48,408 bases of DNA, taken from positions 1 to 48,408 of IMG/VR virus record IMGVR_UViG_3300021406_000004, one strand, 5' to 3'. Shown one piece after another: positions 1-48,408 of the stretch. Each line of letters starts with the position of its first letter. Within the stretch, counting starts at the first letter, position 1. The notes beneath the pieces are model-generated. The model was given only the letters and a program-made list of their open reading frames with translations, ran no database searches and was not told where the DNA came from. Source of the DNA: a virus. The position numbers and the translations under genes were made by a program.

Positions 1-127
1 TGCCAATACCGGCACGTCGAACTTTCAGTACATCACCACTTTCACCGCGCAGGATGGTTCGGTGAGGAACCTTGCCCTCGACGCTTCAGGGAATTTCTAC
101 GTCGAGAACCTGACCAGCGCTCCGGGC
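1..127. repeat. Terminal direct repeat, left copy (circular-assembly overlap)
   Basis: Bases 1-127 are identical to 48282-48408. The repeat lies inside a coding region, and removing one copy joins the reading frame open at the left end with the one open at the right end. An exact overlap of odd length at both contig ends is the usual mark of a circular assembly graph, so it probably reflects a circularly permuted or circularised genome rather than a physical 127-bp terminal repeat. Confidence 0.95.
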
Positions 128-3100
128 CAGTTGAACCTCGTGCTCGAAGGAATTACGCCCAACTCTCTGGCGGTGGGGACAGAAGGACCTGGCGTGGAGT
201 ATCTGGCCTTCACTCAGGGCAACGGCGGCGTCGATATGCCAATTCAGTACACGCCGCAGTGGATTGACCGCATCACCCAGGTGGGCCCTGGAGCGGCGCC
301 GGTATTCACGCCCCAGGTGGCCACCGCTGCCACTTTCCCTATTGCGACCATCACGCAGCCTCCGCAGAAATCCGATCCTGCCGATCCGGGGCATTTCCAG
401 GCGTTGCTCTGGTCTGTTGGTCCGACCTCGACCGCCCCCGGCAACGTCATCACGGTGTTCTATGCGCAGAGCGTGCAAGACACTGACCTGACGACCGCCT
501 TCAACTCGGGCAACGCGGTTTATGTCTACGTCTCGGCCACCCCGATTGCGACCGCCAACGGAACCTTCCTCGTAACCTCGGTCGGCAAGGCTACGCCTCC
601 GGGCGGAGGGTCGCAGCGATTCTATTTCACCTATCAGGTCTCGACCTCGAACTACCAGTTCTACGGCGGTCCCGATTCGGCCACCGGCTTCTATCAGCGC
701 ACTCTGGCAACGCTGACCACTACGGGGCCTGTGCCGGGGCTGGTGGTTGGGAACAATATCACCGTCGCGGGATCGTCGGTAGCGTCATGGGACGCGCAGT
801 GGCAGATCACTCAGGCGCTCAACTCGGCAGCGATGACCGTCACTTCTACGCAGGTCATAGCCTCGGTCGCCACCATCGGCTACGCGGTATCGTCGGGAAC
901 TGCGCCCGTGGCCGGCCAGCTCGTGACCATTACCGGGACCACAAACGCCAACGGGCAGTTGAACCTGACCAACGCGACTATCCAGAGTTCCACCGGAGGC
1001 ATGACGGGAACCTTTACCCTGAACGTTTCCTTCGCCACGGCGGCGTTCTCGCCGGAATCCGGCTATGCCACAACTGCCGGCTCGATCTTCGCCTTCGATC
1101 CCGGCATCGGCACTCTGGGCACGGCCTCGAACCCGATCTTCGGCAATGCCACTGGCGGCACACTGACCTTCACTTCGGCAACCGCGCAGCTGATCAGCCC
1201 GGGAACGCGGCAGGGCACCGTATTCTTTATCACGCGAAATGACTACTTCACCGCGCCTGCGCCCCCCGTCACCTTCACCTGTCCGGAGAACACCACCGGA
1301 ATTCTGGTGACGCAGATTCCTGTCGGCCCTCCCAACGTTATCGCCCGCGGCATCGCCATTACCGAAGCGGGGCAGAACGGCACGCCGGGAGGCAACTTCT
1401 ACTGGCTGGCCACGCCTGTAACCTACATCGTCAATAACGTTTCCTATACCGCGTCCTCGTTCCGCATCGACGACAATGTGGCCACCAGCGCCACGCTGAA
1501 CTTCACCGACTATGTGCTGCTGGGTGGAGGCACGGGCGAGACGCAGATCGACCGCTACGGCTACAACCTGTTCAACCAGATCGAAATCGGAGATCCGGGA
1601 TGGCTGTCGAGCTATGCGGGGCGCAACTGGTACGGCCAGTGCATTAACAAAATCCAGAACTTCAACAATCTCTCCTTCGATGGCGGATACCTGCCGGGAG
1701 GGGTGCTGGTCCCGCTGGGCTGGTCAACGCCCGACGCTTACGGGTCGCTGCTGGTAAGCGCGAAATTCGGCAACTCCTACTACATCCAGAACACGTCAGG
1801 ATCGGTTCAGCCTATCGCCGGTCTGATCTCGCAGACTGCCTTTCAGGATGCCTACCAGCAGCCCATCCTCTACCAGAACACGGCCTACTCGGTGCGGCTT
1901 ATCGTGCGCTCTCCTTCCGCTGCCACTTCAGGGCAGATCACGGTCGATCTTGAGGATTCGGTCACGGGGCAGATTTACGGAGCGCAAGCGCTGCTCCTGG
2001 CCAACATTACCTCGAACTTCGCCATCTACACAGGAACCCTGCTGACCGTGCCGTTCGCCAAGGTGCCATCCACGGTTCAGTTGCGCGTCTACGCCCAAAA
2101 CCTTCCCGCGGGCGGAGATGTCGAGATCGACCGCATCGACATCTTTCCCACCGCCATCCCGGTCCTCTCGACCACCGTCTATGGCTCCTATGCCGGACTG
2201 CCTGAACAGGTAGATGGCTCAACGGGACAGGTTGAATTCATCTCCGAAAACCAGCAGCCAGTGAATGGCTCGATGGTGATGTACGACACGTTCTATGCGC
2301 TCAAGGGCTGGACCGGAAATGCGCCCGGATCATCGATGTACTCGCTTCAGGCATCGGCCAACCTTGAGCCCGCGCAGTGGGATGAGCCCGAAGTAGCGCA
2401 ACGCCTTGGTGGCGCCTGCGGCCCTCTAGCGTTCGATCTTGGCGAGCAGTGGTACGTCGGAGCCACCCGCTCCGGCCTCTACGTCTTCGTAGGAGGCCAG
2501 CCGGGGCGCATCAACATGGAAATCTATCAGGTGTGGGATGCGATCGCGTGGAGCGAATCTGCTGGCATCTGGGTGCTGAACGATGAGATCCATCGCCGCC
2601 TGCTGGCGGGCGTGCCGATGCAGACGCCGAACTTCTGGCTGCCCAATGCGCCGCCTCAGACACCCGCGCCGGAGTTAGTCTTCGTCAGTTCCACCGCTCC
2701 AAGCGGACGGACGCCGGGGATCATGACGGTCACATTCGCATCAAATCTGCCACCCTTCACCTCTGGGCAGTCCTATACTTTCGGACCGATCACCGGGGCT
2801 TCCTTTGTTTCCGGGCAGACCCTCTATCCTTCCTCCGTTTCGGGCAATCAGGCGATCTTTGTGGGAGGCTTTGCCGACTTCTCCGGCGCTTCCACTGGAA
2901 TGCTGACGGCAATCTCCGGCATCTCGCTGATCAACTGCCCCAACGTGGTCCTGATGTGCAATTACCAGGGTATCGACTCAGGCGAGGGTTTGAAGACGAT
3001 GCCTCAAATGCACACCACCATGTTCGGCACACTGAACGCCATCGACATGCGGCGCAAGTGGTCGATCTGGCAGATTCCGTCACCCTATGCGGCGCTGGTT

Positions 3101-3577
3101 CAGGGGCAGACCGATCAGGAAATCTACATCTGCAATGGGCGGGGCAACTCGCAGATTTACAAGCTCGATCCTGAATCGACCAGCGATGCTGGCCTGACGA
3201 TCGATTCGCTCTACACTACGGCGGGGATGCCGGAACTGAGCAAGCGCGCTCAGGCGCCTGGCGTGGGCGGATTCGGCAATACGCGAACGGGATACCTCTG
3301 GGCATCGCTTGAGAGCCGCGGCAACGTCGCAGTCAGATTCCTGCCCAACCGGCTGATTTATCCGGAGACCGTAGATTACCTTGCGTGGACACTGCCGGGA
3401 GGATTCTCCCCCGGCGAGCCTGCGCTTCAGGATTGCCAGTCTGCGGTAAACTTCTGGGCAACACGCACTTTCGTCGAATTCCGCGAGAATGACGGTTATG
3501 CGTTCAGCCTGTCGAACTGCGCTATCCAGACCAAGAAAGACCCGTGGAACGCTCTGGTGGGGAGTAAAACCGGATGA
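1..3577 (+). CDS. Giant tail hub / beta-propeller-like structural protein (3' part; gene continues from 47650)
   Basis: The frame is open from base 2. With the right-end segment it forms a 1402-residue gene (211 residues from 47650-48281 plus the last base carried over, then 1191 here). The middle holds Thr/Gly/Val-rich beta modules of the FCCH-like style (phrases such as ...VAGQLVTITGTTNANGQ...). The C-terminal third has WYVG, LYVFVGGQPG, WSIWQIPSP and IYICNGRG blade-like strands, as in beta-propeller hub or DNA-stabilisation proteins of short-tailed phages. The first complete Met in the window (base 62) is internal and is not the start. The stop overlaps the next gene's ATG. The structural role is confident; the exact hub assignment is inferred. 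Confidence 0.8.
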   Translation, partial: ANTGTSNFQYITTFTAQDGSVRNLALDASGNFYVENLTSAPGQLNLVLEGITPNSLAVGTEGPGVEYLAFTQGNGGVDMPIQYTPQWIDRITQVGPGAAPVFTPQVATAATFPIATITQPPQKSDPADPGHFQALLWSVGPTSTAPGNVITVFYAQSVQDTDLTTAFNSGNAVYVYVSATPIATANGTFLVTSVGKATPPGGGSQRFYFTYQVSTSNYQFYGGPDSATGFYQRTLATLTTTGPVPGLVVGNNITVAGSSVASWDAQWQITQALNSAAMTVTSTQVIASVATIGYAVSSGTAPVAGQLVTITGTTNANGQLNLTNATIQSSTGGMTGTFTLNVSFATAAFSPESGYATTAGSIFAFDPGIGTLGTASNPIFGNATGGTLTFTSATAQLISPGTRQGTVFFITRNDYFTAPAPPVTFTCPENTTGILVTQIPVGPPNVIARGIAITEAGQNGTPGGNFYWLATPVTYIVNNVSYTASSFRIDDNVATSATLNFTDYVLLGGGTGETQIDRYGYNLFNQIEIGDPGWLSSYAGRNWYGQCINKIQNFNNLSFDGGYLPGGVLVPLGWSTPDAYGSLLVSAKFGNSYYIQNTSGSVQPIAGLISQTAFQDAYQQPILYQNTAYSVRLIVRSPSAATSGQITVDLEDSVTGQIYGAQALLLANITSNFAIYTGTLLTVPFAKVPSTVQLRVYAQNLPAGGDVEIDRIDIFPTAIPVLSTTVYGSYAGLPEQVDGSTGQVEFISENQQPVNGSMVMYDTFYALKGWTGNAPGSSMYSLQASANLEPAQWDEPEVAQRLGGACGPLAFDLGEQWYVGATRSGLYVFVGGQPGRINMEIYQVWDAIAWSESAGIWVLNDEIHRRLLAGVPMQTPNFWLPNAPPQTPAPELVFVSSTAPSGRTPGIMTVTFASNLPPFTSGQSYTFGPITGASFVSGQTLYPSSVSGNQAIFVGGFADFSGASTGMLTAISGISLINCPNVVLMCNYQGIDSGEGLKTMPQMHTTMFGTLNAIDMRRKWSIWQIPSPYAALVQGQTDQEIYICNGRGNSQIYKLDPESTSDAGLTIDSLYTTAGMPELSKRAQAPGVGGFGNTRTGYLWASLESRGNVAVRFLPNRLIYPETVDYLAWTLPGGFSPGEPALQDCQSAVNFWATRTFVEFRENDGYAFSLSNCAIQTKKDPWNALVGSKTG

Positions 3578-4300: not shown

Positions 4301-4729
4301 ATGATACGCGATTACGACAGTACCGATCTGCCGGAAATAATTGAACTACACAAAAGACAGGGATTCGACTATCCTTTACCTGATCTCTCCTCGCCTTTGG
4401 TGCTGATTCACAAGGTCCGCGAGATCGATGGGCATGTCGTGGCGGCGTGTTTTCTCCGCATCACGGCAGAGACATACCTTCTCTGCGAAGGGAGCCCGGT
4501 CGTAAAGGGTCGCGCAATCGAGGAATTGCAACCCGCAGTAGACCGGGCAGCTTTCGAGAAGGGCCTTTCCGAGTACGTCTGCGTTCTCCCTCCCGAAATA
4601 GCTGAGCAATTTGGCCCGGTCCTTGAGCGTATCGGCTGGGAGCGTGCGCGCTCATGGCCGCTTTACCAGAGGAGCGTCGATGCGATCGGCACAGGGACAA
4701 GCGGGCAGCGCCTACAATCAGGCGAATAA
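4301..4729 (+). CDS. GNAT-like acetyltransferase-family protein
   Basis: 142 residues. The opening IRDYDSTDLPEIIELHKRQG, strand VLIHKVREIDGHVVAACFLR and following helix match the N-terminal beta1-alpha1-beta2-beta3 layout of GNAT N-acetyltransferases. The C-terminal part is short and I do not see a clear acetyl-CoA loop (Q/RxxGxG/A), so it may be a degenerate or structural GNAT fold. Similar small GNAT-like proteins often sit among tail or ejection genes of short-tailed phages. The next gene starts inside its last 50 bases. No good Shine-Dalgarno precedes the ATG. Confidence 0.65.
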   Translation: MIRDYDSTDLPEIIELHKRQGFDYPLPDLSSPLVLIHKVREIDGHVVAACFLRITAETYLLCEGSPVVKGRAIEELQPAVDRAAFEKGLSEYVCVLPPEIAEQFGPVLERIGWERARSWPLYQRSVDAIGTGTSGQRLQSGE

Positions 4730-6655: not shown

Positions 6656-8073
6656 TGCCATCTCCCGCCAAGCCGGAAGTTGATTGGGGCACCGCTCAAC
6701 CGATTAAATCGGGCGATGTGGACTGGGGTAGTGCGCAGCCAATCGGTGGCGCTTCATCGGCGCCTCCACAGGAGGGGTTCCTCGCGTCACTAGGCCATAC
6801 TTTCGGCGTGGGCGCACGCGAAGGGGAGCAGTACCTCAAGGACGAACAGGAGCACCCATGGCGTACATCTCTTGAGAATGCTCCTCTTGTTCCACAAATC
6901 GAATCGCTCTGGTCGGGCGGTAAGCGTATTGGAGGCGAACTAAAGAAAGCCTTTCAGGGCGCGACAGAAGGTAACCCATACTCAACAGCCGAGCACACTG
7001 CCTATGCGTTGCCCTTTGTTGGTGCCGGAATTCAACGTGGAGTCGAACAGCTTGGACCGCAGGGAGAAATGACGCCCGGAGCCGCTGGAACCGCCGTGGG
7101 AACAGCGATGCAGACAGCCCCAATGGTGATTGGAGGCGTGGACGCCGCCGTGCCGGGACGCACGCCCATGATGCCCACGGTATCGAAGTTGACCGATCCA
7201 CTACATGCCTATCGCTCCCCATTCATCCCGCCTGAAGAAGCGGCGGCCCGCGGCATGGCGGATATTCTCAAGCCCAACCCGGTTGACTACAACCAGACCG
7301 TGCGCAACCTGCAGAACGTCGGTCCGTATATCCGAGAAGCGGCTGCGAAGTATAAGAACCCGTTGGAGTTCGGTAAGGCGGCGCAGGCTGCGGGACAGCA
7401 ACAAACAGGATTCTTCAAGCAGCAGTTTATCGAGCCGGACGAGATGCGCCTCGGTGATGCGTACAAGGATGTGGGTCGGATCAATGATGAACTGCGTCCC
7501 ATGTATCGCGCCCGCAGCATGGGCGAGGTGATGACCAAGGAAGCGCAGGACAAGTTTCAGCAACTGGAGCAGCGCCGGGATAAGCTGAATGACTTCATTT
7601 ACAACGAAGCCAGCGGACGCACCGGAGTTCCGCGCGAACAGATCCAGGCCATCAATCAGCGCGGGGGTCAGTTACAGAATATCGGAGACGTTGCCGATGC
7701 GGCACAGGCGCAGAGAAGGCTGGGCAAAGTCTTCACTCCTACCGGCATGTCGATCCCCATGGGGCCACTTGACCGCATTGGTCGTGCCGTGAACTTCATT
7801 CGCGGGATGGGTGATCCTGAGGCTCCGCTGGGACGCAAGCTGGGCAAAGTCATGCAACAGATGCCGGGGCAACCGGAACCGCTTCCCGACGAGGGTGCGA
7901 TCAGGGATTACCGCAATGCCTCGAATCAGGAAGAGCTGGGCAACCTGCGGCGCGTATTGGAAAATCAGGCTCAAAACAGAGCAAACATCAAGGCGAGAAC
8001 GCAAGTTGCGCGCCCCATACTTGAGGAGCAAGGTCAGGCTAGATTGCGCTCGATGCGCAGAGGAGAACAGTAA
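6655..8073 (+). CDS. Putative internal virion (ejection) protein
   Basis: 472 residues, TAATG overlap with the preceding gene. The N-terminus has two short W-containing repeats (EVDWGTAQPI, DVDWGSAQPI at about residues 5-25), a motif style seen in phage proteins that dock on a partner. A Gly/Ala hydrophobic stretch near 110-150 (YALPFVGAGIQRGVEQLGPQ) could be membrane-active. The rest is helical and charged (DKFQQLEQRRDKLNDFIYNE; RRVLENQAQNRANIKARTQV). No catalytic signature seen. Together with the two preceding genes it makes a three-gene ejection-type block. Confidence 0.7.
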   Translation: MPSPAKPEVDWGTAQPIKSGDVDWGSAQPIGGASSAPPQEGFLASLGHTFGVGAREGEQYLKDEQEHPWRTSLENAPLVPQIESLWSGGKRIGGELKKAFQGATEGNPYSTAEHTAYALPFVGAGIQRGVEQLGPQGEMTPGAAGTAVGTAMQTAPMVIGGVDAAVPGRTPMMPTVSKLTDPLHAYRSPFIPPEEAAARGMADILKPNPVDYNQTVRNLQNVGPYIREAAAKYKNPLEFGKAAQAAGQQQTGFFKQQFIEPDEMRLGDAYKDVGRINDELRPMYRARSMGEVMTKEAQDKFQQLEQRRDKLNDFIYNEASGRTGVPREQIQAINQRGGQLQNIGDVADAAQAQRRLGKVFTPTGMSIPMGPLDRIGRAVNFIRGMGDPEAPLGRKLGKVMQQMPGQPEPLPDEGAIRDYRNASNQEELGNLRRVLENQAQNRANIKARTQVARPILEEQGQARLRSMRRGEQ

Positions 8074-8765
8074 TGCCGGTTTATCCGAACAACCCATTTT
8101 CGCCGCCACAGTTGGTTCAGAAGGGCGTACCTGCCTATCTGTTCGGCTCCCTCAACATGCTTCGGGGGAACACCAACCTGTTCCTGACCAACGTGGCGCT
8201 GACGACCAACGTGGCGACGGTCTCGGTGACGATCTTGAACGGCCCCAAGCCGCAGGTAAACGACCTGATCTCGATTGGCAACTCTACCTCGACCTCGGGG
8301 CTGTTCAACGTCAATCGCGCCATTATCACGGGCGTCACGATCAATGACACGACAGGTGCAGGCACCATCACCTTTGCGCTGACCCATGCCAACGTAACCT
8401 CGGCAGCGGATTCCGGCTCGGTCATCACAGAGGTCGCGGAGGCCGGTGACGCGATTGCCAACAGCTCTTCGGTCGCCTGCCTGATTCAGGCTCCGGAGGG
8501 TGATTCGCAGTTCACGGTCCCGATGGCCGTAACCTTCCCTGGCGGCGTGCTTCCCACGGCTGTCACAGCAACGCTGCAGGTCGCCATCCGCGATCTCGAT
8601 GCCGAGTACACCAACACCACCACGGTGGTCACGGTGGCGGGCACGGCTTATACGGCGGGGCCGGTGGTGCAGGCGACACTGCAGCGCGGCTACTTCTACC
8701 GCATCCAGCTAACCGGACTGACGGCGGGATCGGCGACGGGCGTAATCGCCAAGATCGGAGGGTAA
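8073..8765 (+). CDS. Structural protein with FCCH-like beta module
   Basis: 230 residues, TAATG overlap. Residues about 40-112 hold a small beta module (TTNVATVSVTI ... NDLISIGNS ... TFALTHANVTSA) that closely parallels one in the 47021 gene (SNVATLITG ... GDVITIAGAS ... IPLTHANVAST). Such modules resemble the ubiquitin-activating-enzyme FCCH-like domains often annotated in phage structural proteins. The C-terminal half is another all-beta region ending YFYRIQLTGLTAGSATGVIA. Probably a decoration or fibre-attachment protein; the paralogy is visible, the role inferred. Confidence 0.75.
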   Translation: MPVYPNNPFSPPQLVQKGVPAYLFGSLNMLRGNTNLFLTNVALTTNVATVSVTILNGPKPQVNDLISIGNSTSTSGLFNVNRAIITGVTINDTTGAGTITFALTHANVTSAADSGSVITEVAEAGDAIANSSSVACLIQAPEGDSQFTVPMAVTFPGGVLPTAVTATLQVAIRDLDAEYTNTTTVVTVAGTAYTAGPVVQATLQRGYFYRIQLTGLTAGSATGVIAKIGG

Positions 8766-9302
8766 ATGGCTCTGGCGCGCGATGACCGCTGGCTGACGGA
8801 TGCACAGGGGAGAGCACTGGCCGGAGCGCAGGTCTACTACTGCACCCAGCCGGCCAACACTTCGGTGATTCCTCCATCCCCGCTGGAGACCATCTATTCC
8901 GACCTTTCCTCGACGCCGCTGGCGCAGCCGGTCATCACTGACGGATTTGGCCATGGCTTCGCCTATCTCGATGATCTGGTGCTCTATACGCTGGTGTTCG
9001 TTCATCCGCTGTTCGGCTCGAATCCGGTCATCCTGCCCGATCAAGTCATCAACGGAGCCGCAGCGGCATCCCCGGGGTTCAGGCCATTTGCCGGGATTCC
9101 GAATGGAACGCAGGATGGGGTCAACAAGGTGTTCACGTTGACCAATGGCGGCGTCAATCTGCCATCAAACCCCACTCAGGCGACAGTGTGGCGCAACTTT
9201 CCCCTCGTGCCTCCGGTCGGCTTTACGCTGAGCGGAATCACCGTAACGTACACAACCGCCCCGCTGGTAGGAGACTCGATCTATGCGCAAGGCTTTTATT
9301 AG
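8766..9302 (+). CDS. Tail-fibre adaptor protein with carboxypeptidase-regulatory-like N-domain
   Basis: 178 residues; ATG directly follows the preceding TAA. The N-terminal about 80 residues (TDAQGRALAGAQVYYC, YSDLSSTPLAQPVITDGFGH) follow the 'added sugar-like' beta-sandwich pattern common at the head of phage tail-fibre proteins: linker, GRALAGA turn, then S-x-x-x-T-P-L-A-Q-P and a D-G-F-G turn. The C-terminal part has PNGTQDGVNKVFTLTNG, a phage fibre/baseplate motif. Overlap of 20 bases with the spike gene suggests it links the spike to the tail. Confidence 0.75.
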   Translation: MALARDDRWLTDAQGRALAGAQVYYCTQPANTSVIPPSPLETIYSDLSSTPLAQPVITDGFGHGFAYLDDLVLYTLVFVHPLFGSNPVILPDQVINGAAAASPGFRPFAGIPNGTQDGVNKVFTLTNGGVNLPSNPTQATVWRNFPLVPPVGFTLSGITVTYTTAPLVGDSIYAQGFY

Positions 9303-12000
9303 TCTCCTGCTTCTGGCAGCTGCCTCGGCATGGGGCCAGAAGATCGATCCTGACCAGCTGAACATTTCTTTCACGGTGCTGCCCATCGGCGCTCCGCTGA
9401 CGACGGCCGCGCTGGCTGCGGCATGCAACGGGACGACTCCGGGAATGATGGCGCTACCTGCGGGAACTGTCTCATCGGCTGCGCTGGTTACGGTTCCGTC
9501 GAACTGCCAGATTGTCGGTGTGGGCAAAGAGCAGACCATTCTCGGCGTGTCGAACGCTTCGCCCATCGCAGCCGCGCTCGACATCAACGGGGGAACCAAT
9601 ATTGGGTTTTCCGGTTTCACGATCCTGTGCGCCTCTTCGCCCGCTACCTGCACTACGGCAGTGAGAATCCGTTTCTCGACCAACATCACACTCAAGGACA
9701 TGGTGATCTCGGGCGGAGGCTACGGCGCAGGCTCGAATCCGCTGGCGCAGGTCTATACCGAGAACGTCGACAACCTGCTGGCCGACAATGTGCACCTGAT
9801 CAACGCTGGTGGCAAATACGACTGGGTAAACGGCTACAACGGTACAGCCTCGACGCGCCTCCACCTGCACAACGTGGTCGAGGAGAACAACGCCGCCATT
9901 ATCGCTATCTCGCTATTCAACTGTCAGTTCTGCACGGTCGATGGCGGAACGTCGATTAACGAGAATAACCAGACCGACTCGAGCACCGTGGACGGCTACG
10001 GGCTGCTTTTCTATGCCTCGAACGTCACGCCTGCCATCACGACCTGCACGGGTTCGGGGACTGTGATCTGTACCATCGCGCTCTCGGGTGGCGGGACAAC
10101 GCAGATTCCGGTGGGAGCTTCCTTTCGCGTGGCCACCTATGGCATTAGCGGGGGCACGGGGACGCTCAATGGCACCTGGGACGCGACTCTGGCATCCCCG
10201 ACGACCTTTACCATCACCGGGGCCGGGAACACGTCAGGAGCGACCTATGGCGAGGCGTTCGCCTTCTTCCCCACCACCAACAACCTGATCAACGATGTGC
10301 ACATCAAGAATACGGCCGGATCGGGCATCTACCTGCAGGGCTGCGACTACTGCACCGTGACCGGATACGACCTCCAGAATGTCGATCAGCAGATGCTGGG
10401 CTCATCGCTTCCAGCGGGCGGAATCGCCATCGGGGGAGGGAATCCCATCTCGGTGGGCGTCCCGGCGCATGGGGACTCGATCGGACACGGGATCATCAAT
10501 GGCGTGGGGCAGTATTGCCTCGATATTGCCGACACTGTTGATTTCGTCGCCTCCGGGCTCAGTTGCAACAATGCCGCCGTGGCCGGAGTCCGCCTCTTCG
10601 CGGGTTCGTTCAATAACACCAACTTCGAGATTGGCGGGCTGACGATCGACAATGTGCCTACCTGCGTCAAGAGCCAGACATCCTCGGTCAACACGGGATC
10701 CATTTCCGGAACATGCCAGAACTTCTCTGCCAGCGGGCTGCAGCCGTCTAGCGGGGGGATCAGCTTTCGTAACTGGAAGCTCATCGCCTCGTCTTATATC
10801 CCCTGCATCGACGACTTCTTCGACCGCAATGGATGGTTCGACGTATCGTGTTCTGGCGGTTACGACCTGTTCGCCGGCAGCAACACCAAGGTCGCCAATC
10901 TGCGAGTCGCCAGCGTCACGGCGGGAGCCAATCACCATGCGGTTGAATTTGCAGGCGCAACCCATGTGGTGCTGAATGAGCCCATCATCGATACCGCCAA
11001 CGACGGCATCTTCTTCGCCGCGGGCTCGGTGCAAAACAGCGACATTACCATCCTTCATCCGCGAATCGCGAACATCACCAGCCAGCCAGCCATCTGGGAT
11101 CAGGCGCCCGCAACGCTGACCATTACCACCCACACCTCGACCTCGGTGGACATCGCGGCGACAGGAGCCCTGATTACGGCCGGAATGGGCCTCGGAGACT
11201 ATGGGACGGGCGGCAATAACGACATTCCGCCGAGCACAACGATTACGACCAATCCCGGCTCCTGCGCTTCCGGCTGCACGGTGACGATCTCAAGTGCTGC
11301 GACAGGCTCGCATGCTGCGGAGACTGGCCTGCTGCAGAATGTCATGTCCTCGAACGTGCGTATCTGGGATGCCGACATTCAGGGCAATCTAGGCTCCTGC
11401 CCAACGACCTCGCAGGCCATCCTGGCCTTTGGGCTCCAGAGTTCCGAACTGCGGCGCACCTCTGTAGGTTGCTTCGGTGGGCAGGGAATAATCGACGTGC
11501 GCGGCGCCTCCAATGGGGTCACGATCAGCGGTGGGACGCTCACGGGCGGAACTGCAGCCTTGGCTGGTATTTACATGCCCGGAGGACTTCTAGGCAGCGC
11601 CGCCAACGTCACCGTTTCTAATCTCACCATCAACGGGACAGTGACCAATTCCATTTACGACCATGGCGCGGGACTAGGCAATATCTTTAACGATGTCACC
11701 AACTTCCTGAACGGAAACACGGTCAGCGTATCCAACACCAACACCACTATTCAGGGAACGCTTCTCGTTTCATTGACACCCGCAGCCACTGCATCCAGTG
11801 CATGTGTAGAGCAGACTTTTACTGCAATTCTCGGATTGCAGACCGGGCAGGGTGTCAGCGTAACTGCCCCATCAGCCCTGAGCCATGTGGGAATCAGCGG
11901 CGCCAGAGTCTCAGCAGCTAACGCTTTGACGGTCAACTTCTGCGGTGACTTAACGGGCGGGACGGCTCCAGCCGGAAACTACAAGGTGATTGCGCAATGA
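9283..12000 (+). CDS. Exported-type right-handed beta-helix tail spike / depolymerase candidate 1
   Basis: 905 residues with a strong TAGGAG Shine-Dalgarno. Residues 1-19 form a textbook Sec signal peptide: basic MRK, hydrophobic AFISLLLLAAASAW, cleavage predicted after GQ or the preceding Ala. The body (about 60-800) is rich in parallel beta-helix coils with N/G/D turns (DINGGTNIGFSGFTILCA; NVTVSNLTINGTV), as in pectate-lyase-fold spikes. It also carries an inserted FCCH-like module (SGGTGTLNGTWDATLASPTT) and many cysteines, unusual for a cytoplasm-assembled virion protein. The C-terminus is a small beta domain (SHVGISGARVSAANALTVNF). Glycan degradation is plausible, but I cannot assign catalytic residues. 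Confidence 0.8.
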   Translation: MRKAFISLLLLAAASAWGQKIDPDQLNISFTVLPIGAPLTTAALAAACNGTTPGMMALPAGTVSSAALVTVPSNCQIVGVGKEQTILGVSNASPIAAALDINGGTNIGFSGFTILCASSPATCTTAVRIRFSTNITLKDMVISGGGYGAGSNPLAQVYTENVDNLLADNVHLINAGGKYDWVNGYNGTASTRLHLHNVVEENNAAIIAISLFNCQFCTVDGGTSINENNQTDSSTVDGYGLLFYASNVTPAITTCTGSGTVICTIALSGGGTTQIPVGASFRVATYGISGGTGTLNGTWDATLASPTTFTITGAGNTSGATYGEAFAFFPTTNNLINDVHIKNTAGSGIYLQGCDYCTVTGYDLQNVDQQMLGSSLPAGGIAIGGGNPISVGVPAHGDSIGHGIINGVGQYCLDIADTVDFVASGLSCNNAAVAGVRLFAGSFNNTNFEIGGLTIDNVPTCVKSQTSSVNTGSISGTCQNFSASGLQPSSGGISFRNWKLIASSYIPCIDDFFDRNGWFDVSCSGGYDLFAGSNTKVANLRVASVTAGANHHAVEFAGATHVVLNEPIIDTANDGIFFAAGSVQNSDITILHPRIANITSQPAIWDQAPATLTITTHTSTSVDIAATGALITAGMGLGDYGTGGNNDIPPSTTITTNPGSCASGCTVTISSAATGSHAAETGLLQNVMSSNVRIWDADIQGNLGSCPTTSQAILAFGLQSSELRRTSVGCFGGQGIIDVRGASNGVTISGGTLTGGTAALAGIYMPGGLLGSAANVTVSNLTINGTVTNSIYDHGAGLGNIFNDVTNFLNGNTVSVSNTNTTIQGTLLVSLTPAATASSACVEQTFTAILGLQTGQGVSVTAPSALSHVGISGARVSAANALTVNFCGDLTGGTAPAGNYKVIAQ

Positions 12001-15000
12001 AAAAACTTCTATGTTGTCTCCTGCTTGCCGCTCCACTGTTCGGGCAAGCGCCAAAGCCGAGCGTACAAACCTATGTGGCCGGACGTTTCGTTGCCTACAA
12101 CTACAGCCTCTGGAGGGTGCAGATTTACTCGCTCTCTGCTGCCACAGGGTCGGTGACGATGGTACTGAGCAATGGTTCGGTGACGCTTCCGGATGGCAGG
12201 GTCATCGTTCCCTTCGCCACCACGGCTCCGCTCAAGATCGGTACCGAGACGGCCACGCCCTCGGCGATATCGAACTGCTTTATAAACAATCCTCCCAACA
12301 CCTGCACCGTCACCGTAACCCTTTCAGGGTCGCACACCATCTCTGAGACAGTCGCCTCGGGCACCTACGGCCTGCAGGAGGGCTTGAATGACGCCGGAGC
12401 AGTTCCGGGCGGCACCGTAACGCTCGATGGCTCATGGGCAGCGGTAGGGGGCACCACCGCGATGGTTAATGCGGCGACCGTTCCCAGCAACGTGAAGATT
12501 GAGGATTGCCGCACGGGGTGCTCCGCCGCTGGCGCTGGCGGAGTCAGCCAGATCGTCGCAGGCACCAATGTGACCATATCGCCATCTGGTGGTACGGGCA
12601 CGGTAACGATAAATTCAACAGCCGGTGGTGGTGGTACCACGGTGTATACCTGCACCGGATCGGGCGATGCCACTGGTCTAAACACAGCTTTGGCCAGCGC
12701 TGGTCACGTTGTTGTCGCGGGAGCCAACTGTGCCGTGACTAGTACACTCACAATTCCTTCTGGAACCTGGCTGGATATTCCTCCCGCCACAACCATTACT
12801 TGCAACCCGAGTACCGCGATTCCTTGCCTTTCCAATACGCAGAACGCTCAGACCATCGCTCGCACCTGCACAGATGTGCAGATGACCGTCAATTCGGTCA
12901 ACATCACCTCGGCGACGTGCAATTTTTCCCAAGCAGATGTGGAAACTGAATCCATCGCGTGCATAGGAGGATACGCCGGGGGACTGGCTTATGGCGCGGT
13001 CGCCATGGGGACCGATCTTCATACCACCTTTGCCAACGTCACCAACTCCACCACGGCGGCACTGGCCGATCCTCCGACTGCGGTTTCCAATCCCATGACC
13101 TGCAATATTTACACCCGAGATCACGATATAAGGGTCACTGGCGGGACGTGGATCATGCAGGGTCCGAACCAGCCCAACAATCCCCCGGTACTGAAATTTA
13201 TTACAGTGAACCGTCTGATCGTAGATGAAGCAATTACGGTAGCGCGGTCACTTACGGTCCCAAGTAATGCCGGCGGGTACAGTGGAATCTATCTCCTCGA
13301 TTCATCCAACGTCCGTATCTTAAATCACACCATTAATAGCTGGTCGCAAGGGGAAGACGGGATTCACATGACAGGTCCGCTGCGCTCCATTTCCCTATCG
13401 CATATCAAGGGTCACAGCGGAGACGACTTTATCGCCATCAGCGCGGCAGACGGAAATTCGGCTAGCAACGGTACCGTGGATGGTCGCGTTTATGGAGTGG
13501 TCTACGGGGTGTCTGTCAGCGACGTGGATGGGAGTTCGTATGCTAATGATGCGGGAGTGAAACTGTTTGGGCCGAGCGGTACGCCTATCCTGATAGGCAA
13601 CGTCACCATCAACCATGTAAATGGAAACAGCCAGACCTGCCCGCTAACGGCCTGCAATTCCAGCGGCAACTTGCCAGGCTTCGGCAATGCCGTCTACCTC
13701 TACTCGGGGCTGATGGACAACATTATCGTCAACGACATTGGCGGAAATATCGTTACCTCGGCCGTTTACGCTGGAGGATCTGGAACCGGAGGCCACGACA
13801 CCCACATCCGGTCGCTGACAGCCAGCAACCTGTGGCAGAACGCCTATACTTATTCTGCAGCCAACCAGACCCACTTTCTGCTCGGGATAGATGCGGGTGC
13901 AGTCGCCGATAACGTCGCAGTGGACGGTTTGAAAAGCGATGCCTACAATCTCGCGCAAGATGTGTTCGTCGCCAACACCAGCACTGTGTCCAGACTAAAG
14001 GTGTCTAACGTCCAATTCGCCAACATGACCGGGGGGGCGTTTGAGCCCTTCGACCTTTTCGGAACATTCGACGACATCATCTTTGAGAATATCCAACTCA
14101 GCTACAATACCGGAACCGGGGCTTCCGCGAGCAGGGGAGTCATATCGCTAGCGGGATCAACCAGCAACCGACTTGCGCTGCACCATTTTCATGTCACCTA
14201 TCAATCAGGGAGCGCTAGTTCCGGTACTGGGCTTGTTACGCTAGCCAACTTTCAGCCGGGAAACCTTCCATCCACGGCGGGCGACATCCTGTTTGACGAT
14301 GTGTCGATGGTGGCATCGGGTTCGGCTTTGAATCAATATCTCCTCTTCGTTGCAGCCAGCCAGACGGTCAATACCTACACGATCCAGAACAGTCAGATGT
14401 ACTACCAGCACGGCTGCATTCTAAACAGTGGAACGATTACCACCGCCGGTAGCATCATCAGCGTGGACACATCCAATCTGACGACTCCCGCCAACTGCGC
14501 GGCAACCATTTTGACGATTCCGGCGAGCGGAAATGGAACCCTTGTCGCCACCACCAACGTTAATTCAGACTCGGCTGGGCAGATCACGTGCTGGGATGGA
14601 AGCCATAATGTGACCAATTCCGGCTGTCCTGTGGTTCCGATAGCGTTAATCTCCGCGGCGCCGACCAGCGATATGCTGTGCGCCGAAGCTGCGGATACTT
14701 CGATTGCCAACGACACCATCACCGGAGCAACGCAGGCCAATCCCGTGGTGTTCACGGTGAGCACTAACCCGCAGACTACGGGGTATCTGGTGGGAGAGAC
14801 CTATGGCGTGCAGAATGTGACGCCCACGGACTATAACGGGACCTACACCATCACGGCGACCAACACCACCACTATCACAGCTACCTGCATCTCAGGATGC
14901 GTCAAGCCTCCCGGATCGGCCTACACAAGTGGCGGAACAACGTACAAGATATGCACCAATCAGTCGAGTGATGCGGTATCGACCTCGAATCAGCCGTTCG

Positions 15001-15671
15001 CTACATCCATCGGCTTACCCGCATTGGCTTCTCCTCCCTATCAGTTCAATGTCGAAGCTGAATACGGGCTATACACTCCCTCTGGGGCAGCGGCCTCTTC
15101 CGGGTATCCGAGTCTGCGCTATGGCGGCAATACGCTGATAGGAAGCACCGGCACAACCACACAGGTTGTCAGTCAGACAAACATTCCGGGAACCACGGGA
15201 TGGGCCTTTATCAACCCCGTGAGTGGGCTGATTTATAGCGGCTACAAATGGAATACCATTTCAGCTTCTGCTTCAGGCGCTTTTTCATCAGCGAAGGCGA
15301 CTGTCTACACGACCACAACAGGCGCTGCCAATCTGACACTGAATTTCGGATTCCTTGCGACGGGGGTGGCAACGGCGACCTACACCAGCGGAGGATCAAT
15401 TACAGGCTCGGCAACCCAGACCTGCACGGCTACCTTTGCGGGCGGTTCGGGAGGTTCATATACCATCGCTCTGACCGGCACCAATACGATTGCCGGCGGC
15501 ACGGCTTTCACTGTAATCACCAGGGATGGTGGACATGCGAGCGCACCCACAACGGCCACACTGGGAAGCGGTACAGCTACCTGCTCTGGAAGCGCTACGG
15601 TGTCATCAACTCTCGGCGGGCAACCTGGAAATGCTCTGGCATTGCGCTGGTTTAGCGCCAAACAGCAGTGA
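11997..15671 (+). CDS. Exported-type beta-helix spike 2, polygalacturonase (GH28)-like core
   Basis: 1224 residues; ATGA overlap with spike 1. Residues 1-17 are a Sec signal peptide (MKKLLCCLLLAAPLFGQ). A beta-helix core around 380-780 contains GEDGIHM and, about 25 residues later, SGDDFIAIS, matching the spacing of the GH28 polygalacturonase active-site segments (N-x-D and G-D-D), so glycoside hydrolysis or lyase activity on host polysaccharide is plausible. The canonical GHG and RIK motifs were not found. After the core come an FCCH-like module (PVVFTVSTNPQTTGYLVGET) and a C-terminal beta-sandwich likely to bind receptor or trimerise. Cys-rich, like spike 1. Confidence 0.8.
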   Translation: MKKLLCCLLLAAPLFGQAPKPSVQTYVAGRFVAYNYSLWRVQIYSLSAATGSVTMVLSNGSVTLPDGRVIVPFATTAPLKIGTETATPSAISNCFINNPPNTCTVTVTLSGSHTISETVASGTYGLQEGLNDAGAVPGGTVTLDGSWAAVGGTTAMVNAATVPSNVKIEDCRTGCSAAGAGGVSQIVAGTNVTISPSGGTGTVTINSTAGGGGTTVYTCTGSGDATGLNTALASAGHVVVAGANCAVTSTLTIPSGTWLDIPPATTITCNPSTAIPCLSNTQNAQTIARTCTDVQMTVNSVNITSATCNFSQADVETESIACIGGYAGGLAYGAVAMGTDLHTTFANVTNSTTAALADPPTAVSNPMTCNIYTRDHDIRVTGGTWIMQGPNQPNNPPVLKFITVNRLIVDEAITVARSLTVPSNAGGYSGIYLLDSSNVRILNHTINSWSQGEDGIHMTGPLRSISLSHIKGHSGDDFIAISAADGNSASNGTVDGRVYGVVYGVSVSDVDGSSYANDAGVKLFGPSGTPILIGNVTINHVNGNSQTCPLTACNSSGNLPGFGNAVYLYSGLMDNIIVNDIGGNIVTSAVYAGGSGTGGHDTHIRSLTASNLWQNAYTYSAANQTHFLLGIDAGAVADNVAVDGLKSDAYNLAQDVFVANTSTVSRLKVSNVQFANMTGGAFEPFDLFGTFDDIIFENIQLSYNTGTGASASRGVISLAGSTSNRLALHHFHVTYQSGSASSGTGLVTLANFQPGNLPSTAGDILFDDVSMVASGSALNQYLLFVAASQTVNTYTIQNSQMYYQHGCILNSGTITTAGSIISVDTSNLTTPANCAATILTIPASGNGTLVATTNVNSDSAGQITCWDGSHNVTNSGCPVVPIALISAAPTSDMLCAEAADTSIANDTITGATQANPVVFTVSTNPQTTGYLVGETYGVQNVTPTDYNGTYTITATNTTTITATCISGCVKPPGSAYTSGGTTYKICTNQSSDAVSTSNQPFATSIGLPALASPPYQFNVEAEYGLYTPSGAAASSGYPSLRYGGNTLIGSTGTTTQVVSQTNIPGTTGWAFINPVSGLIYSGYKWNTISASASGAFSSAKATVYTTTTGAANLTLNFGFLATGVATATYTSGGSITGSATQTCTATFAGGSGGSYTIALTGTNTIAGGTAFTVITRDGGHASAPTTATLGSGTATCSGSATVSSTLGGQPGNALALRWFSAKQQ

Positions 15672-17048: not shown

Positions 17049-17347
17049 ATGCCCTAGCAGCTTGGCTAAAATCAAAAAATCTCACCAGCCACTCCATCGC
17101 CGCTGCCGCAATCGCCATCGCTACCCTGATCTCTACCGACCAACAAGTGCGAGATTTCCTGCTTTCCACCTTCCAAGCCCACCCCAAGATTGCTAGCTCG
17201 GCGTTCGCGCTGGCGGGCATTATCCTCAAGTATTCTCATAGCAGCAGTCCAGCCGGAACCGTAGCGACCGCGCAGGAGATTCAAACCTCGCCGGCTGCCC
17301 TGACGCAGGATGCCGTGGATGCGGTTAAACCGAAGGAGACCAAATGA
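17045..17347 (+). CDS. Small two-span membrane protein, holin candidate
   Basis: 100 residues, AAAGGAGAAAGCGC before the ATG. Two hydrophobic segments: about 17-31 (SIAAAAIAIATLIST) and about 48-65 (IASSAFALAGIILKYSH), with a short loop between and a polar, Ala/Thr-rich tail. Size and two-span topology fit class II holins. It is immediately followed, with ATGA overlap, by a lipoprotein gene, an arrangement common in lysis cassettes. No family motif is diagnostic, so holin is an inference from topology and context. Confidence 0.6.
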   Translation: MNALAAWLKSKNLTSHSIAAAAIAIATLISTDQQVRDFLLSTFQAHPKIASSAFALAGIILKYSHSSSPAGTVATAQEIQTSPAALTQDAVDAVKPKETK

Positions 17348-17712
17348 AACGATTCCTGATCCTTGCTCTGGCCATCCCGCTCAGCGTGGGATGCGCCAAG
17401 TCCACCGCCCCCACTCCACCGACCGCACCCGGATACACCAACGCAGTCGATCAGTCCCTTGGCGAGACGCTGGCCGCGGCGCGCGCCTTCTATACCCGCC
17501 TCCAAACCGATGCGGCCGCGGGAACGTTCAAGCCGTCGGCCGCTGAGACTTCCGCGCTGAACGACCTCGGCACAGCGATCAACGTGGCCGAGCCCATCTA
17601 CCTCGCCTACCACGCCGGGACGGCCACTCAGGCCGCAGCCCAGCAGGCGGTGAACAACGTCATCACGGCGCAGTCGGCGGCGCAATCTCAGGTTTCGCAA
17701 GGGGGTAAGTGA
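17344..17712 (+). CDS. Lipoprotein (outer-membrane spanin candidate or envelope protein)
   Basis: 122 residues. A signal peptide with basic MKR, hydrophobic FLILALAIPL and lipobox LSVGC predicts processing and lipidation at Cys17, anchoring it in the outer membrane. The mature part begins Pro/Thr-rich (AKSTAPTPPTAPG), then is Ala/Gln-rich and helical. Following a holin-like gene, an o-spanin role is plausible, though at about 105 mature residues it is longer than typical Rz1. Superinfection exclusion is an alternative. ATGA overlap with the upstream gene. Confidence 0.7.
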   Translation: MKRFLILALAIPLSVGCAKSTAPTPPTAPGYTNAVDQSLGETLAAARAFYTRLQTDAAAGTFKPSAAETSALNDLGTAINVAEPIYLAYHAGTATQAAAQQAVNNVITAQSAAQSQVSQGGK

Positions 17713-33647: not shown

Positions 33648-33923
33648 ATGTGCGACTTATCCGTAGAATACCGCCTTCGGCGCATTGAGGGTGCATTGGA
33701 CGCCGTTTCTGCACGTCTTGCTGATGTGCAGATGCATCCTGCATTGTCAATTCCTCCCTTGCCGGGATTTGAGGATAAAGTGGCGTCGCCTCGTTCCGAG
33801 GATAAAACTCCCATCGAAATCGCGGATTTAATCTCTGAGAGTTGCCCGCATCTGACCTTGTCGTCGGATTCTTATAATGCGGCGATTCTCGAAGCTTTTC
33901 GCCGCGGACAGCGCTCGAAATGA
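33648..33923 (+). CDS. Hypothetical protein between terminase subunits
   Basis: 91 residues; ATG 33648 follows GGAGACACA. Helical N-terminus (MCDLSVEYRLRRIEGALDAV, SARLADVQ), Pro-rich middle (PALSIPPLPGFEDKVASPRS), and a short helical end (YNAAILEAFRRGQRSK). Its stop overlaps the large terminase start (ATGA). A 33.57-33.65 kb gap before it includes an imperfect hairpin (GAAGGT / ACCTTTC). Function unknown; co-translated with terminase. Confidence 0.6.
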   Translation: MCDLSVEYRLRRIEGALDAVSARLADVQMHPALSIPPLPGFEDKVASPRSEDKTPIEIADLISESCPHLTLSSDSYNAAILEAFRRGQRSK

Positions 33924-35440
33924 ACGATCAACTCGCTTCCGAACTCGGCGCCCTGACGCTTGATCCGTTGAATGCTGTGCGCTTCGGGTTTCACTGGGGT
34001 GAGGGCGAGTTGGAGCGGATCCGCGGGTGGCAGGCGGAGACGCTGGAGACGGTTGGGATTCATTTGCGGACGCGGCGTTTTGAGCCGTTGAAGATAGCGG
34101 TGGCGTCGGGGCATGGGATTGGGAAGTCGGCGCTGATCGGGATGATTGCGTGGTGGGCGTTATCGACGTGCACGGATGCGCGGGTGATGGTAACGGCCAA
34201 CACGGATGATCAGTTGAGCCAGAAGACGTGGCCGGAGATCGAGAAGTGGTTCTCGCTGGCGATTAATTCGCACTGGTGGGAGCGGATGGCGACCAAGATT
34301 GCGGCTCGGGCCGAGGGGCATCAGAACTCGTGGCGGCTGGACCGAGTGACGTGGAGTGAGAACAATACGGAGGCGTTCCAGGGGCTGCACAACCTTGGAA
34401 GGCGCATCGTGGTGATTTACGACGAGGCGTCGAGCATTCCGGACAAGATTTGGGAAGTGACCGAGGGTGCGCTGACCGATGAGGGTACGGAGATCATCTG
34501 GGTGGCGTTTGGGAACCCGACGCTCAATACGGGAAGTTTCCGGGAGTGCTTTGGCAGGTTCCACCATCGCTGGATTCATCGCCACATCGATTCGAGGACG
34601 GTTGAGGGAACGAATCTTGAACTGTTCGAGAAGTGGAAAGAGGATTGGGGCGAGGATTCAGACTTCTTCAGGGTCAGGGTCAGGGGGGAGTTCCCTAGGG
34701 CCGGCAGCGCGCAGTTCATTTCAAGCGAGATCGTGTCGCGGGCGAGGAAGAGGCAGGTGGGCGACCAGGCGAATGCGTGGCTGGTGCTGTCGATCGACGT
34801 GGCGCGCTTTGGGGACGATCAGACGGTGATTGGGTACCGCCAGGGCCTGAAGGTGGTGATCCTCGAGAGGTTGAGGGGTTCGGACACTATGCAGACGGCG
34901 ATGCGGGCGATGTATTACGTCCGGAAGCTGAATCCGCGCACGGTGGTGGTTGACGGCGACGGCATCGGCGCCGGGGTGGTGGATTACATGCGACTGCACC
35001 TGTCGGACCACATCGAGCGCATGCGGGACAGGTTTAGGCTCGAGGAGTTCCACGGAGCCTCGCGGCCGACCGACGGCGACATGTACCTGAACCGGAGGGC
35101 CGAGGCATGGGGCCTGATGCGGGACTGGCTCGAAACGGGGTCGATTCCCGACGAGCCTGAGATGGAGTCCGACCTCTGCGGGCCGCAGTATCTGTTCAGT
35201 CCGCGGAACCAGATTCAGCTCGAAAAGAAAGAGGACATGAAAAAAAGGGGTTTGTCATCACCCGACAATGGGGATATGATTGCCATGACCATGACAGCCC
35301 TGACGTTGCCCAAGACCAGAGAGGAGCGGTTCAGGGAGGAAGTGCTGGCCCAGAAAGACCCCCTGGAGCGCCACTTCATGCTGCTGGCGGAGACGGAACG
35401 ACGGCAGAGGATGGCTCAGCCGGCGGCGTGGTGGGAGTAA
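33920..35440 (+). CDS. terL: Terminase large subunit
   Basis: 506 residues. ATPase: Walker A ASGHGIGKSA (about 62-71), Walker B IVVIYDEAS (about 163-171), coupling motif FGNPT (about 198-202). Nuclease: RNase-H-like acidic residues at SIDVARFGDD (D293), VVVDGDGIGAG (D345/347) and SPDNGDM (D449/D452). Linker FFRVRVRGEFPRAG (about 249-262) joins both. It cuts and translocates DNA into the prohead through the portal. Length normal. The stop shares its A with the next start (TAATG). No packaging site could be read off. Confidence 0.95.
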   Translation: MNDQLASELGALTLDPLNAVRFGFHWGEGELERIRGWQAETLETVGIHLRTRRFEPLKIAVASGHGIGKSALIGMIAWWALSTCTDARVMVTANTDDQLSQKTWPEIEKWFSLAINSHWWERMATKIAARAEGHQNSWRLDRVTWSENNTEAFQGLHNLGRRIVVIYDEASSIPDKIWEVTEGALTDEGTEIIWVAFGNPTLNTGSFRECFGRFHHRWIHRHIDSRTVEGTNLELFEKWKEDWGEDSDFFRVRVRGEFPRAGSAQFISSEIVSRARKRQVGDQANAWLVLSIDVARFGDDQTVIGYRQGLKVVILERLRGSDTMQTAMRAMYYVRKLNPRTVVVDGDGIGAGVVDYMRLHLSDHIERMRDRFRLEEFHGASRPTDGDMYLNRRAEAWGLMRDWLETGSIPDEPEMESDLCGPQYLFSPRNQIQLEKKEDMKKRGLSSPDNGDMIAMTMTALTLPKTREERFREEVLAQKDPLERHFMLLAETERRQRMAQPAAWWE

Positions 35441-44107: not shown

Positions 44108-44587
44108 ATGGAGACATTTCCTCGCAGGCCATTTCCTCGCAGGCCCATCAAGGATCGCGTGATCGTGCGCGAGATTCCGCTCAATGAGATTTACCAGCAG
44201 TCCGACATCGCCATCCCGCTCGACGATGAGCGCGTGAAGGATCGCTCCGACCGGGGCGTGGTGGTGGCAGTCGGCTATGGCGTGTGTGAAGTCAAGATAG
44301 GCGAAACCGTATTCTTCGACGAGTTCGCGCTCTGCGATCCGGTGTTCCTGAACCCCGCAGACAAGCGCCGCGCCGACCTGCCGAAGTACTGGCAGATTCG
44401 GGAGGATGATCTGAAGGGCGTGCTCGTCTGTGAGTCTCAACAGCCCGTAGAGGGCTGTGGCAAGACTTGGGGAGGCATCGGCAACGAAATAATGCGCTGT
44501 ATTCGCGAGAAGGGACATTCCGGCGCTTGTGTTGCTTTACATCCCGACCCATACTTCTTTGACGAGCACAAGTCGGCCTATGCGTGA
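44108..44587 (+). CDS. GroES-like co-chaperonin with C-terminal Cys extension
   Basis: 159 residues, AAGGAGACGTAA before the ATG. Residues about 13-90 match Cpn10: PIKDRVIVREIPLNEIYQQS, a mobile-loop-like IAIPLDDERVKDRSDRG, then VVVAVGYGVCEVKIGETVFF, DEFALCDPVFLN (compare GroES K-x-G-D-x-V-x-F). It would cap host GroEL to fold the capsid protein, as T4 gp31 does. The remaining about 60 residues add CESQQPVEGCGKTWGG and MRCIREKGHSGAC, a possible zinc site unseen in bacterial GroES. Directly downstream of capsid and Endo VII genes. Confidence 0.75.
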   Translation: METFPRRPFPRRPIKDRVIVREIPLNEIYQQSDIAIPLDDERVKDRSDRGVVVAVGYGVCEVKIGETVFFDEFALCDPVFLNPADKRRADLPKYWQIREDDLKGVLVCESQQPVEGCGKTWGGIGNEIMRCIREKGHSGACVALHPDPYFFDEHKSAYA

Positions 44588-47650: not shown

Positions 47651-48408
47651 TGGGCGGATTCCACGGAAATTCCGGCGCTCCCCTGGTGCTGTCGGGGCTT
47701 GGCGGGCTGGTAACGCTCGCCGGCTCCGACAGTGTACCCATGGGAGCCTCTCCGCGCACCTACGACACGGATTTCGATGTCGGAAACGCTAAGACGCGCC
47801 CCGGCTTAACGAATGTCTACCCTATCGCCAATGCCTCTATCGGACCTAACCCTCCGACACTGGCTGCTTCGACGACGTGGACCGATCCCAATGCCCTGCT
47901 GACCACCGGAGTTTCCTTCGCGTCCGTGGGAGCGCCCGGATCTCCGGTTGACTTCATCACCGCGACCGAGTTCGCCTTCAACGTGCCATCGACCACCACG
48001 GTGGTGGGACTGACGGTCTCGCTGACCGCCTATGCGACGGTGGCGACAGGCGTGTTCCTGACCGCGCAGCTGGTGGTCAATGGGACGCCCATCGGAGTGA
48101 TCAAGCAGACGCTTTTGCCCGACGTGCCGACCGTCCTGACTTTCGGCGCACCCACTGACAACTGGGGCAACGTGCTGTCGATGGCGGTGGTAAACGAGGC
48201 CAGCTTTGGCATCCAGTTCTCGGCCTGGAGTTTGACCGCCCTGCAGACCGCCTTCATCAATGGCTGCACCATGACGATCGGTGCCAATACCGGCACGTCG
48301 AACTTTCAGTACATCACCACTTTCACCGCGCAGGATGGTTCGGTGAGGAACCTTGCCCTCGACGCTTCAGGGAATTTCTACGTCGAGAACCTGACCAGCG
48401 CTCCGGGC
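47650..48408 (+). CDS. Giant tail hub protein (5' part; continues at base 1)
   Basis: Start ATG 47650 overlaps the previous stop (TAATG). The frame runs without a stop to the window end and continues through the circular junction to 3577, giving 1402 residues. The start MGGFHGNSGAPLVLSGLGGL and ASPRTYDTDFDVGNAKTRPG with L-T-N-V-Y-P is a pattern I associate with hub or stabilisation proteins that open by attaching to the head-tail channel (D-F-D-V-x-x-x-x-x-R-P-G). The rest of this part is a beta-sandwich (TTVVGLTVSLTAYATVATGV). Bases 48282-48408 duplicate 1-127. Confidence 0.8.
   Translation, partial: MGGFHGNSGAPLVLSGLGGLVTLAGSDSVPMGASPRTYDTDFDVGNAKTRPGLTNVYPIANASIGPNPPTLAASTTWTDPNALLTTGVSFASVGAPGSPVDFITATEFAFNVPSTTTVVGLTVSLTAYATVATGVFLTAQLVVNGTPIGVIKQTLLPDVPTVLTFGAPTDNWGNVLSMAVVNEASFGIQFSAWSLTALQTAFINGCTMTIGANTGTSNFQYITTFTAQDGSVRNLALDASGNFYVENLTSAPG
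48282..48408. repeat. Terminal direct repeat, right copy
   Basis: Identical over all 127 bases to the left end of the window, see the entry at 1-127. Removing it leaves a 48281-bp circle. Confidence 0.95.

Follow-up and report, generated by a model that had tools for sequence, protein, structure and literature searches.

Predicted Sec signal peptides and disulfide-type cysteines in the putative tailspikes of an epsilon15-like podovirus lineage of Acidobacteriota

Could the tailspikes of a tailed phage be exported from the cell's cytoplasm? Tailed-phage assembly is generally described as complete in the cytoplasm before lysis, and two large adjacent genes (spike 1 and spike 2) of the viral record IMGVR_UViG_3300021406_000004, whose whole stretch of 48,408 bases we call the window, both begin with what look like signal peptides. 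In this work, we have analysed these genes and their counterparts in related phages. The feature is, as far as the genomes tell, real, lineage-wide and unexpected: epsilon15-like tailspikes with predicted Sec signal peptides and cysteines of the disulfide type. A sequence-only reading of the window had described giant beta-helix spikes with signal peptides and many cysteines, and had suggested secretion, outer anchoring or capture from the host. Its observation is partly confirmed, in that the signal peptides and cysteines stand and the beta-helix fold is unconfirmed, and its interpretation is partly supported.

The window carries a 127-bp direct terminal repeat (1-127 and 48282-48408) and its nozzle gene wraps the contig ends, so the record can be taken as a complete circularised genome. 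The genes that place the virus, and that surround the spikes on the upstream side, are:

62 to 3577, plus strand: 3' part of the tail nozzle/hub gene, which starts at about 47650 and keeps a continuous frame across the ends (61% identity to the syntenic phage L082)
8073 to 8765, plus strand: conserved tail protein of 230 aa, upstream of the adaptor, with a domain in common with the tail nozzle
8766 to 9302, plus strand: putative head-binding (tailspike N-terminal) adaptor, a separate protein of 178 aa with no signal peptide, assigned by AF2 model, Foldseek and PHROG
33920 to 35440, plus strand: terminase large subunit, epsilon15-like (phrog_2; 42-47% identity to epsilon15 and Pseudomonas phage AF)

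Judged from its genes, the virus is an epsilon15-like podovirus of soil Acidobacteriota. A related prophage lies in a 'Granulicella sp.' MAG contig (L092/L138) beside a DeoR regulator, an MFS sugar transporter, a GH92 enzyme and an alpha-amylase-family gene; these chromosomal neighbours indicate an integrated prophage and support the host assignment. The window's structural genes gave no useful matches to Pfam or PHROG, and no lysis gene could be named by Pfam. Several smaller features were seen along the way. The nozzle domain that recurs in the 8073-8765 protein (compared with the nozzle of G019, C1:5423-5881) suggests a duplication. A small ORF (4301-4729) has no Pfam match, and its homologues in relatives resemble the GNAT-type gp13 internal virion protein of epsilon15. 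Shortly past the spikes, 17344-17712 encodes a small lipoprotein with a lipobox-like site (SVGC-AK), possibly an outer-membrane spanin, and 44108-44587 encodes a GroES-like co-chaperonin (PF00166, E 1e-7; phrog_3188).

The spike genes themselves read as follows:

9269 to 9273, plus strand: ribosome-binding site of spike 1, AGGAG
9283 to 9336, plus strand: predicted Sec signal peptide of spike 1, MRKAFISLLLLAAASAWG followed by QK, cleavage before Q19 (rule-based prediction)
9283 to 12000, plus strand: spike 1, 905 aa with 22 Cys, first gene after the head-binding adaptor (ORF, signal peptide, Cys, and syntenic first spike genes in relatives)
11983 to 11989, plus strand: ribosome-binding site of spike 2, AAGGTGA
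11997 to 12044, plus strand: predicted Sec signal peptide of spike 2, MKKLLCCLLLAAPLFG followed by QA, mature start Q17 (rule-based prediction; resembles the host signal peptide LIAGPLFGQTPK in L166)
11997 to 15671, plus strand: spike 2, 1224 aa with 24 Cys in the mature part (ORF, signal peptide, Cys)

Both open reading frames are thus as first described, and their ATG starts are credible because a ribosome-binding site lies just upstream of each and the start of each gene lies a few bases inside the gene before it, in the manner of a compact operon. Each N-terminus has a positively charged n-region, a hydrophobic h-region and a c-region with small residues at -3 and -1, and neither a twin-arginine motif nor a lipobox was found in them, which bears out the earlier description of host-style Sec signal peptides on both genes. 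The calls were made with a rule-based predictor, the cleavage site of spike 1 being assigned visually, on the A/G/S-Q pattern that 14 phages show; this predictor called 0.2% of 7,400 shuffled sequences and, in the structural genes upstream of the spikes of the same phages, 1 of 64, a weak false positive. We therefore regard spikes 1 and 2 as predicted substrates of Sec and a signal peptidase I-type enzyme, with cleavage and translocation forming part of that prediction.

Is this a peculiarity of one phage? With spikes 1 and 2 as queries, neither IMG/VR nor INPHARED yielded homologues or close relatives, so the search went on with the adaptor and nozzle genes. The adaptor gene (8766-9302) gave the syntenic phage L082; the nozzle gene found matches in 34 virus loci and in four Acidobacteriota MAG contigs. 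Downstream stretches were added so that the spike genes could be read at full length. The first spike-type gene starts with a signal peptide in 22 of the 22 related contigs that have a spike gene at this place (the window, L130 alias L082, L084, L085, L089, L094, L096, L114, L120, L131-L139 and L142-L145). The bodies of these first spikes are mostly unrelated to each other, so the signal peptide belongs to the gene position and not to one protein. Within this set the two Acidobacteriota MAG cases, L094 and L138, have longer and less typical signal peptides, and L089 is a distant relative with no recognised adaptor. Signal-peptide genes may stand in tandem, up to five of them (L136), and several genomes carry three to five exported spike-locus proteins each; in L136 (1201-8802) the five follow the adaptor and all have even mature cysteine counts. 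Signal peptides that seemed to be missing in L094, L111, L116, L118, L119 and L124 were traced to late start codons or a fused architecture, and these apparent exceptions were rejected. L099 (20138-22457) has the adaptor and no spike gene at the position, an endolysin-like frame following shortly after. Two 109-kb relatives with a related nozzle (L140 and L141) form a natural contrast, in that their tail-fibre-like proteins lack a signal peptide and have only 1-3 Cys. Nor is there one on the tailspikes of four epsilon15-like isolates, or on a distant body homologue with 12 Cys in a different phage, L008. The signal peptide is therefore an added, lineage-specific feature.

The cysteines tell a similar story. 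Spike 1 has 22 and spike 2 has 26 (two of them in the signal peptide), about 2% of the residues, as the claim of cysteine richness had it, and most lie in short-range pairs (in spike 1, 214/217, 255/263, 354/357 and 661/665), while no cysteine occurs in the two large internal virion-type neighbours of the spikes, of 478 and 472 aa. Across the lineage the mean cysteine content is 2.06% in spike-locus proteins vs 0.55% in the remaining large genes of those stretches. An excess of even cysteine numbers is an accepted sign that exported proteins carry disulfide bonds (PMC7678975). The mature count is even in 31 of the 35 complete spike-locus proteins of the lineage, a set made up of 33 proteins (29 even; two genes outside the spike position left out), L131b (32 Cys) and L094a (22 Cys). 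Control phage proteins without a signal peptide, which themselves lean slightly to even counts, split 60 even to 40 odd at >=8 Cys and 149 to 125 at >=4 Cys; Fisher tests of the spikes against them gave p = 0.001 and p = 4e-5 respectively, values that are somewhat optimistic because of relatedness among some of the spikes. In the host, a small sample of proteins with signal peptides showed neither an even-cysteine bias (3 even, 8 odd) nor a strong preference for Q at +1. VKOR, a generator of disulfides, is present in 39 of 61 genomes of the host class, including the MAG that carries the related prophage. Position-conserved signal peptides, cysteine enrichment, even counts and VKOR in the host class all speak for the proposed export to an oxidising compartment, so that export of the spikes is a well-supported prediction, and enrichment and parity suggest that the spikes would be disulfide-bonded.

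If the spikes leave the cytoplasm, what links them to the virion? They follow internal virion-type genes, which is the position of a tailspike gene, and no other obvious spike candidate was found downstream of the adaptor in the window. The adaptor aligns with 14 homologues (15 members with the window), three of which match a tail-fibre PHROG (phrog_18673). Its AlphaFold2 model (pLDDT 81) matched phage pectate-lyase spikes in BFVD by Foldseek (E = 3e-7) and, in the PDB, the cyanopodophage Pan3 tail, the Sf6 gp8:gp14N complex, P22 tailspike and hub complexes and CBA120 TSP4, with E = 0.004 to 0.18, matches that are individually weak (best phage match E = 0.004). From this model we read the adaptor as probably the counterpart of the domain by which P22/Sf6-type tailspikes are bound to the head, here a stand-alone protein, to which the spikes may attach.

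The spike bodies gave no match to Pfam, PHROG or PDB sequences. A Beta_helix domain appeared only as a sub-threshold match in the relative L131, and the structure prediction proposed earlier, run on residues 195-870 of spike 2 from the single sequence, reached pLDDT 43, too poor for a fold search, and gave no confirmation of the fold; a right-handed beta-helix is plausible. As for the claim that spike 2 has GH28-like GDD spacing, residues 451-496 do align as EDGI...GDDFIAI to the GH28 NTDGID...GDDN core, and this match is local and weak (7.7 bits in a single comparison), below any database threshold. Only the first two of the GH28 motifs NTD, GDD, GHG and RIK align (as EDGI and GDD), and Pfam GH28 did not match spike 2 at E 0.1. 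The spikes may degrade polysaccharide or else serve in receptor binding.

We propose that the spikes are Sec-exported, are disulfide-bonded in the periplasm and join the virions at or after lysis, a reading that we think somewhat better than an even bet. We are evenly divided over its fuller form, in which virion building would be split between the cytoplasm, for heads and tail hubs, and the periplasm, for disulfide-stapled tailspikes exported via Sec, the parts being joined only at or after lysis. The spike precursor would be threaded through SecYEG and cut before Q by signal peptidase I, and would then fold in the periplasm with disulfide bonds, probably as a trimer. Meanwhile heads, tail hub and adaptor (8766-9302) would assemble in the cytoplasm. 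Since an exported spike is topologically apart from cytoplasmic virions, attachment would have to wait for lysis, which would mix virions and spikes and allow the latter to dock on the adaptor or hub. The product would be virions with disulfide-stapled spikes of receptor-binding or polysaccharide-degrading function. Such late attachment is plausible, because finished particles of P22 and T4 accept spikes and fibres, respectively, in vitro. Several observations count against the proposal: the three to five such proteins in several genomes are more than a spike ring obviously needs, the L008 body homologue does without a signal peptide, the PDB matches of the adaptor are individually weak, and both the even lean of the controls and the host sample lessen the force of the cysteine parity.

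The most serious alternative is that the proteins are virion-free enzymes: exported via Sec and set free no later than lysis, they would break down or coat surrounding host polysaccharide, to the advantage of the progeny. It would account for the signal peptides on spike-locus proteins, for the several different exported proteins in tandem (the five of L136) and for domains of secreted-enzyme type (arabinofuranosidase, CHB_HEX_C, Fn3_assoc, InlB repeats). However, in L116, L118 and L119 one ORF holds a signal peptide, a head-binding-like domain and a large spike body. The same fused architecture is seen in L111 by a weak match and in L124 and L125, which are related to each other, mainly by sequence pattern. 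In L120 (18810-22013) a signal peptide precedes a tail-fibre PHROG domain (E = 2e-20) and an alpha-L-arabinofuranosidase catalytic domain (E = 1e-47). A virion-free enzyme has no evident need of a head-binding domain, which argues that these exported proteins are spikes and not just enzymes; moreover, the tailspike position is occupied and no alternative spike gene is evident. The earlier suggestion of secreted depolymerases thus keeps its export, while secretion as the whole explanation fits poorly with a head-binding domain behind the signal peptide in relatives, and we consider virion-free enzymes unlikely, if deserving of some weight. Separately, the alpha-L-arabinofuranosidase B catalytic domain (PF09206) also occurs in the exported protein at L136:7702-8802.

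An improbable reading is that the hydrophobic head stays uncleaved and is no export signal but a plug, either for docking the spike to the tail or for insertion into a membrane. A hydrophobic head is indeed present in every relative at this position, and in six of them the stretch I-N/D-P-x-(T)-Q-I lies directly behind it. The sequence-only reading had named a shared head serving as a tail-docking domain in related phages as evidence against itself; the head does recur, but it varies as signal peptides do (35% mean identity) and ends in A/G/S-Q. In six first genes identity is 35% in the signal-peptide region vs 46% in the first 12 mature residues, a modest difference and not strong evidence. 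Cysteine enrichment and parity point to an oxidising compartment, and the docking-type domains of the relatives are separate modules, placed downstream of the signal peptide or in a gene of their own. The I-N/D-P-x-(T)-Q-I stretch at the mature N-terminus, which is frequent in the split architecture, is a candidate docking peptide, offered as a suggestion only.

More doubtful still is the idea that the spikes are exported to remodel the host surface or exclude superinfecting phages before lysis, whether or not they also enter virions. Epsilon15 has seroconversion genes beside its tailspike, which shows that altering the host surface is within reach of such a phage. Against this, no outer-membrane anchor was found in the spikes, no autotransporter domain by Pfam and no lipobox, the last of which also speaks against the outer anchoring suggested earlier, and no sequence feature indicates action before lysis. 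Finally, that the genes are captured host exported enzymes, carried as cargo with no virion role, is very improbable: the host-style signal peptide would suit it, but 200 genomes of the host class hold no homologue of the spike bodies, the signal peptide is kept 22 out of 22 times at the tailspike position despite turnover of the bodies, and the one host match, to residues 4-80 of spike 2 (L166), was set aside as mere signal-peptide similarity in an ordinary host protein.

What would export of tailspikes mean? If true, it would break the rule that tailed-phage assembly ends in the cytoplasm before lysis, and it would open disulfide-stabilised, enzyme-type exported folds to phages for host recognition. 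It might also explain how short-tailed phages cope with the polysaccharide-rich Acidobacteriota. There is a warning here as well: carbohydrate-active genes with signal peptides that soil viromes contain, and that are readily classed as auxiliary metabolic genes, may encode tailspikes. We found no description of exported tailspikes in tailed phages in open-access journal papers, covered mainly by title and abstract, where the matches were unrelated to the subject. Should the spikes prove to be part of the virion, assembly in two compartments would, to our knowledge, be a novelty among tailed phages.

Known systems share parts of this arrangement. The window resembles phages with the tailspikes of Salmonella phage epsilon15 (gp20), Pseudomonas phages AF and UFJF_PfDIW6 and Acinetobacter phage Ab9 in its terminase (42-47% identity) and in the order nozzle, internal virion proteins, tailspike; in epsilon15, AF and UFJF_PfDIW6 the tailspike gene likewise comes after those of the internal virion proteins, and in epsilon15 and AF genes for holin, endolysin and spanin are close by. 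In contrast, those tailspikes start with MTVS... or MTLP..., have no signal peptide and contain 0.4-1.4% Cys, whereas the window has its head-binding domain as a gene of its own and its spikes as predicted exported precursors. Similarly, the AF2 model of 8766-9302 resembles the head-binding domains of P22 gp9 and Sf6 gp14, as well as phage pectate-lyase spikes, but no sequence similarity to the two was found, and the domain is stand-alone here and lies behind a signal peptide when fused in relatives. Spike 2 is like GH28 polygalacturonases and pectate-lyase-fold depolymerases in EDGI...GDDFIAI, and unlike them in that the remaining GH28 motifs do not align. The filamentous phages offer a precedent for virion proteins with Sec signal peptides, pIII and pVIII, which are assembled outside the cytoplasm. 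These, however, are membrane proteins of non-lytic, extruding phages, whereas here the exported proteins would be large spikes, and the phage is tailed, with heads that should form in the cytoplasm.
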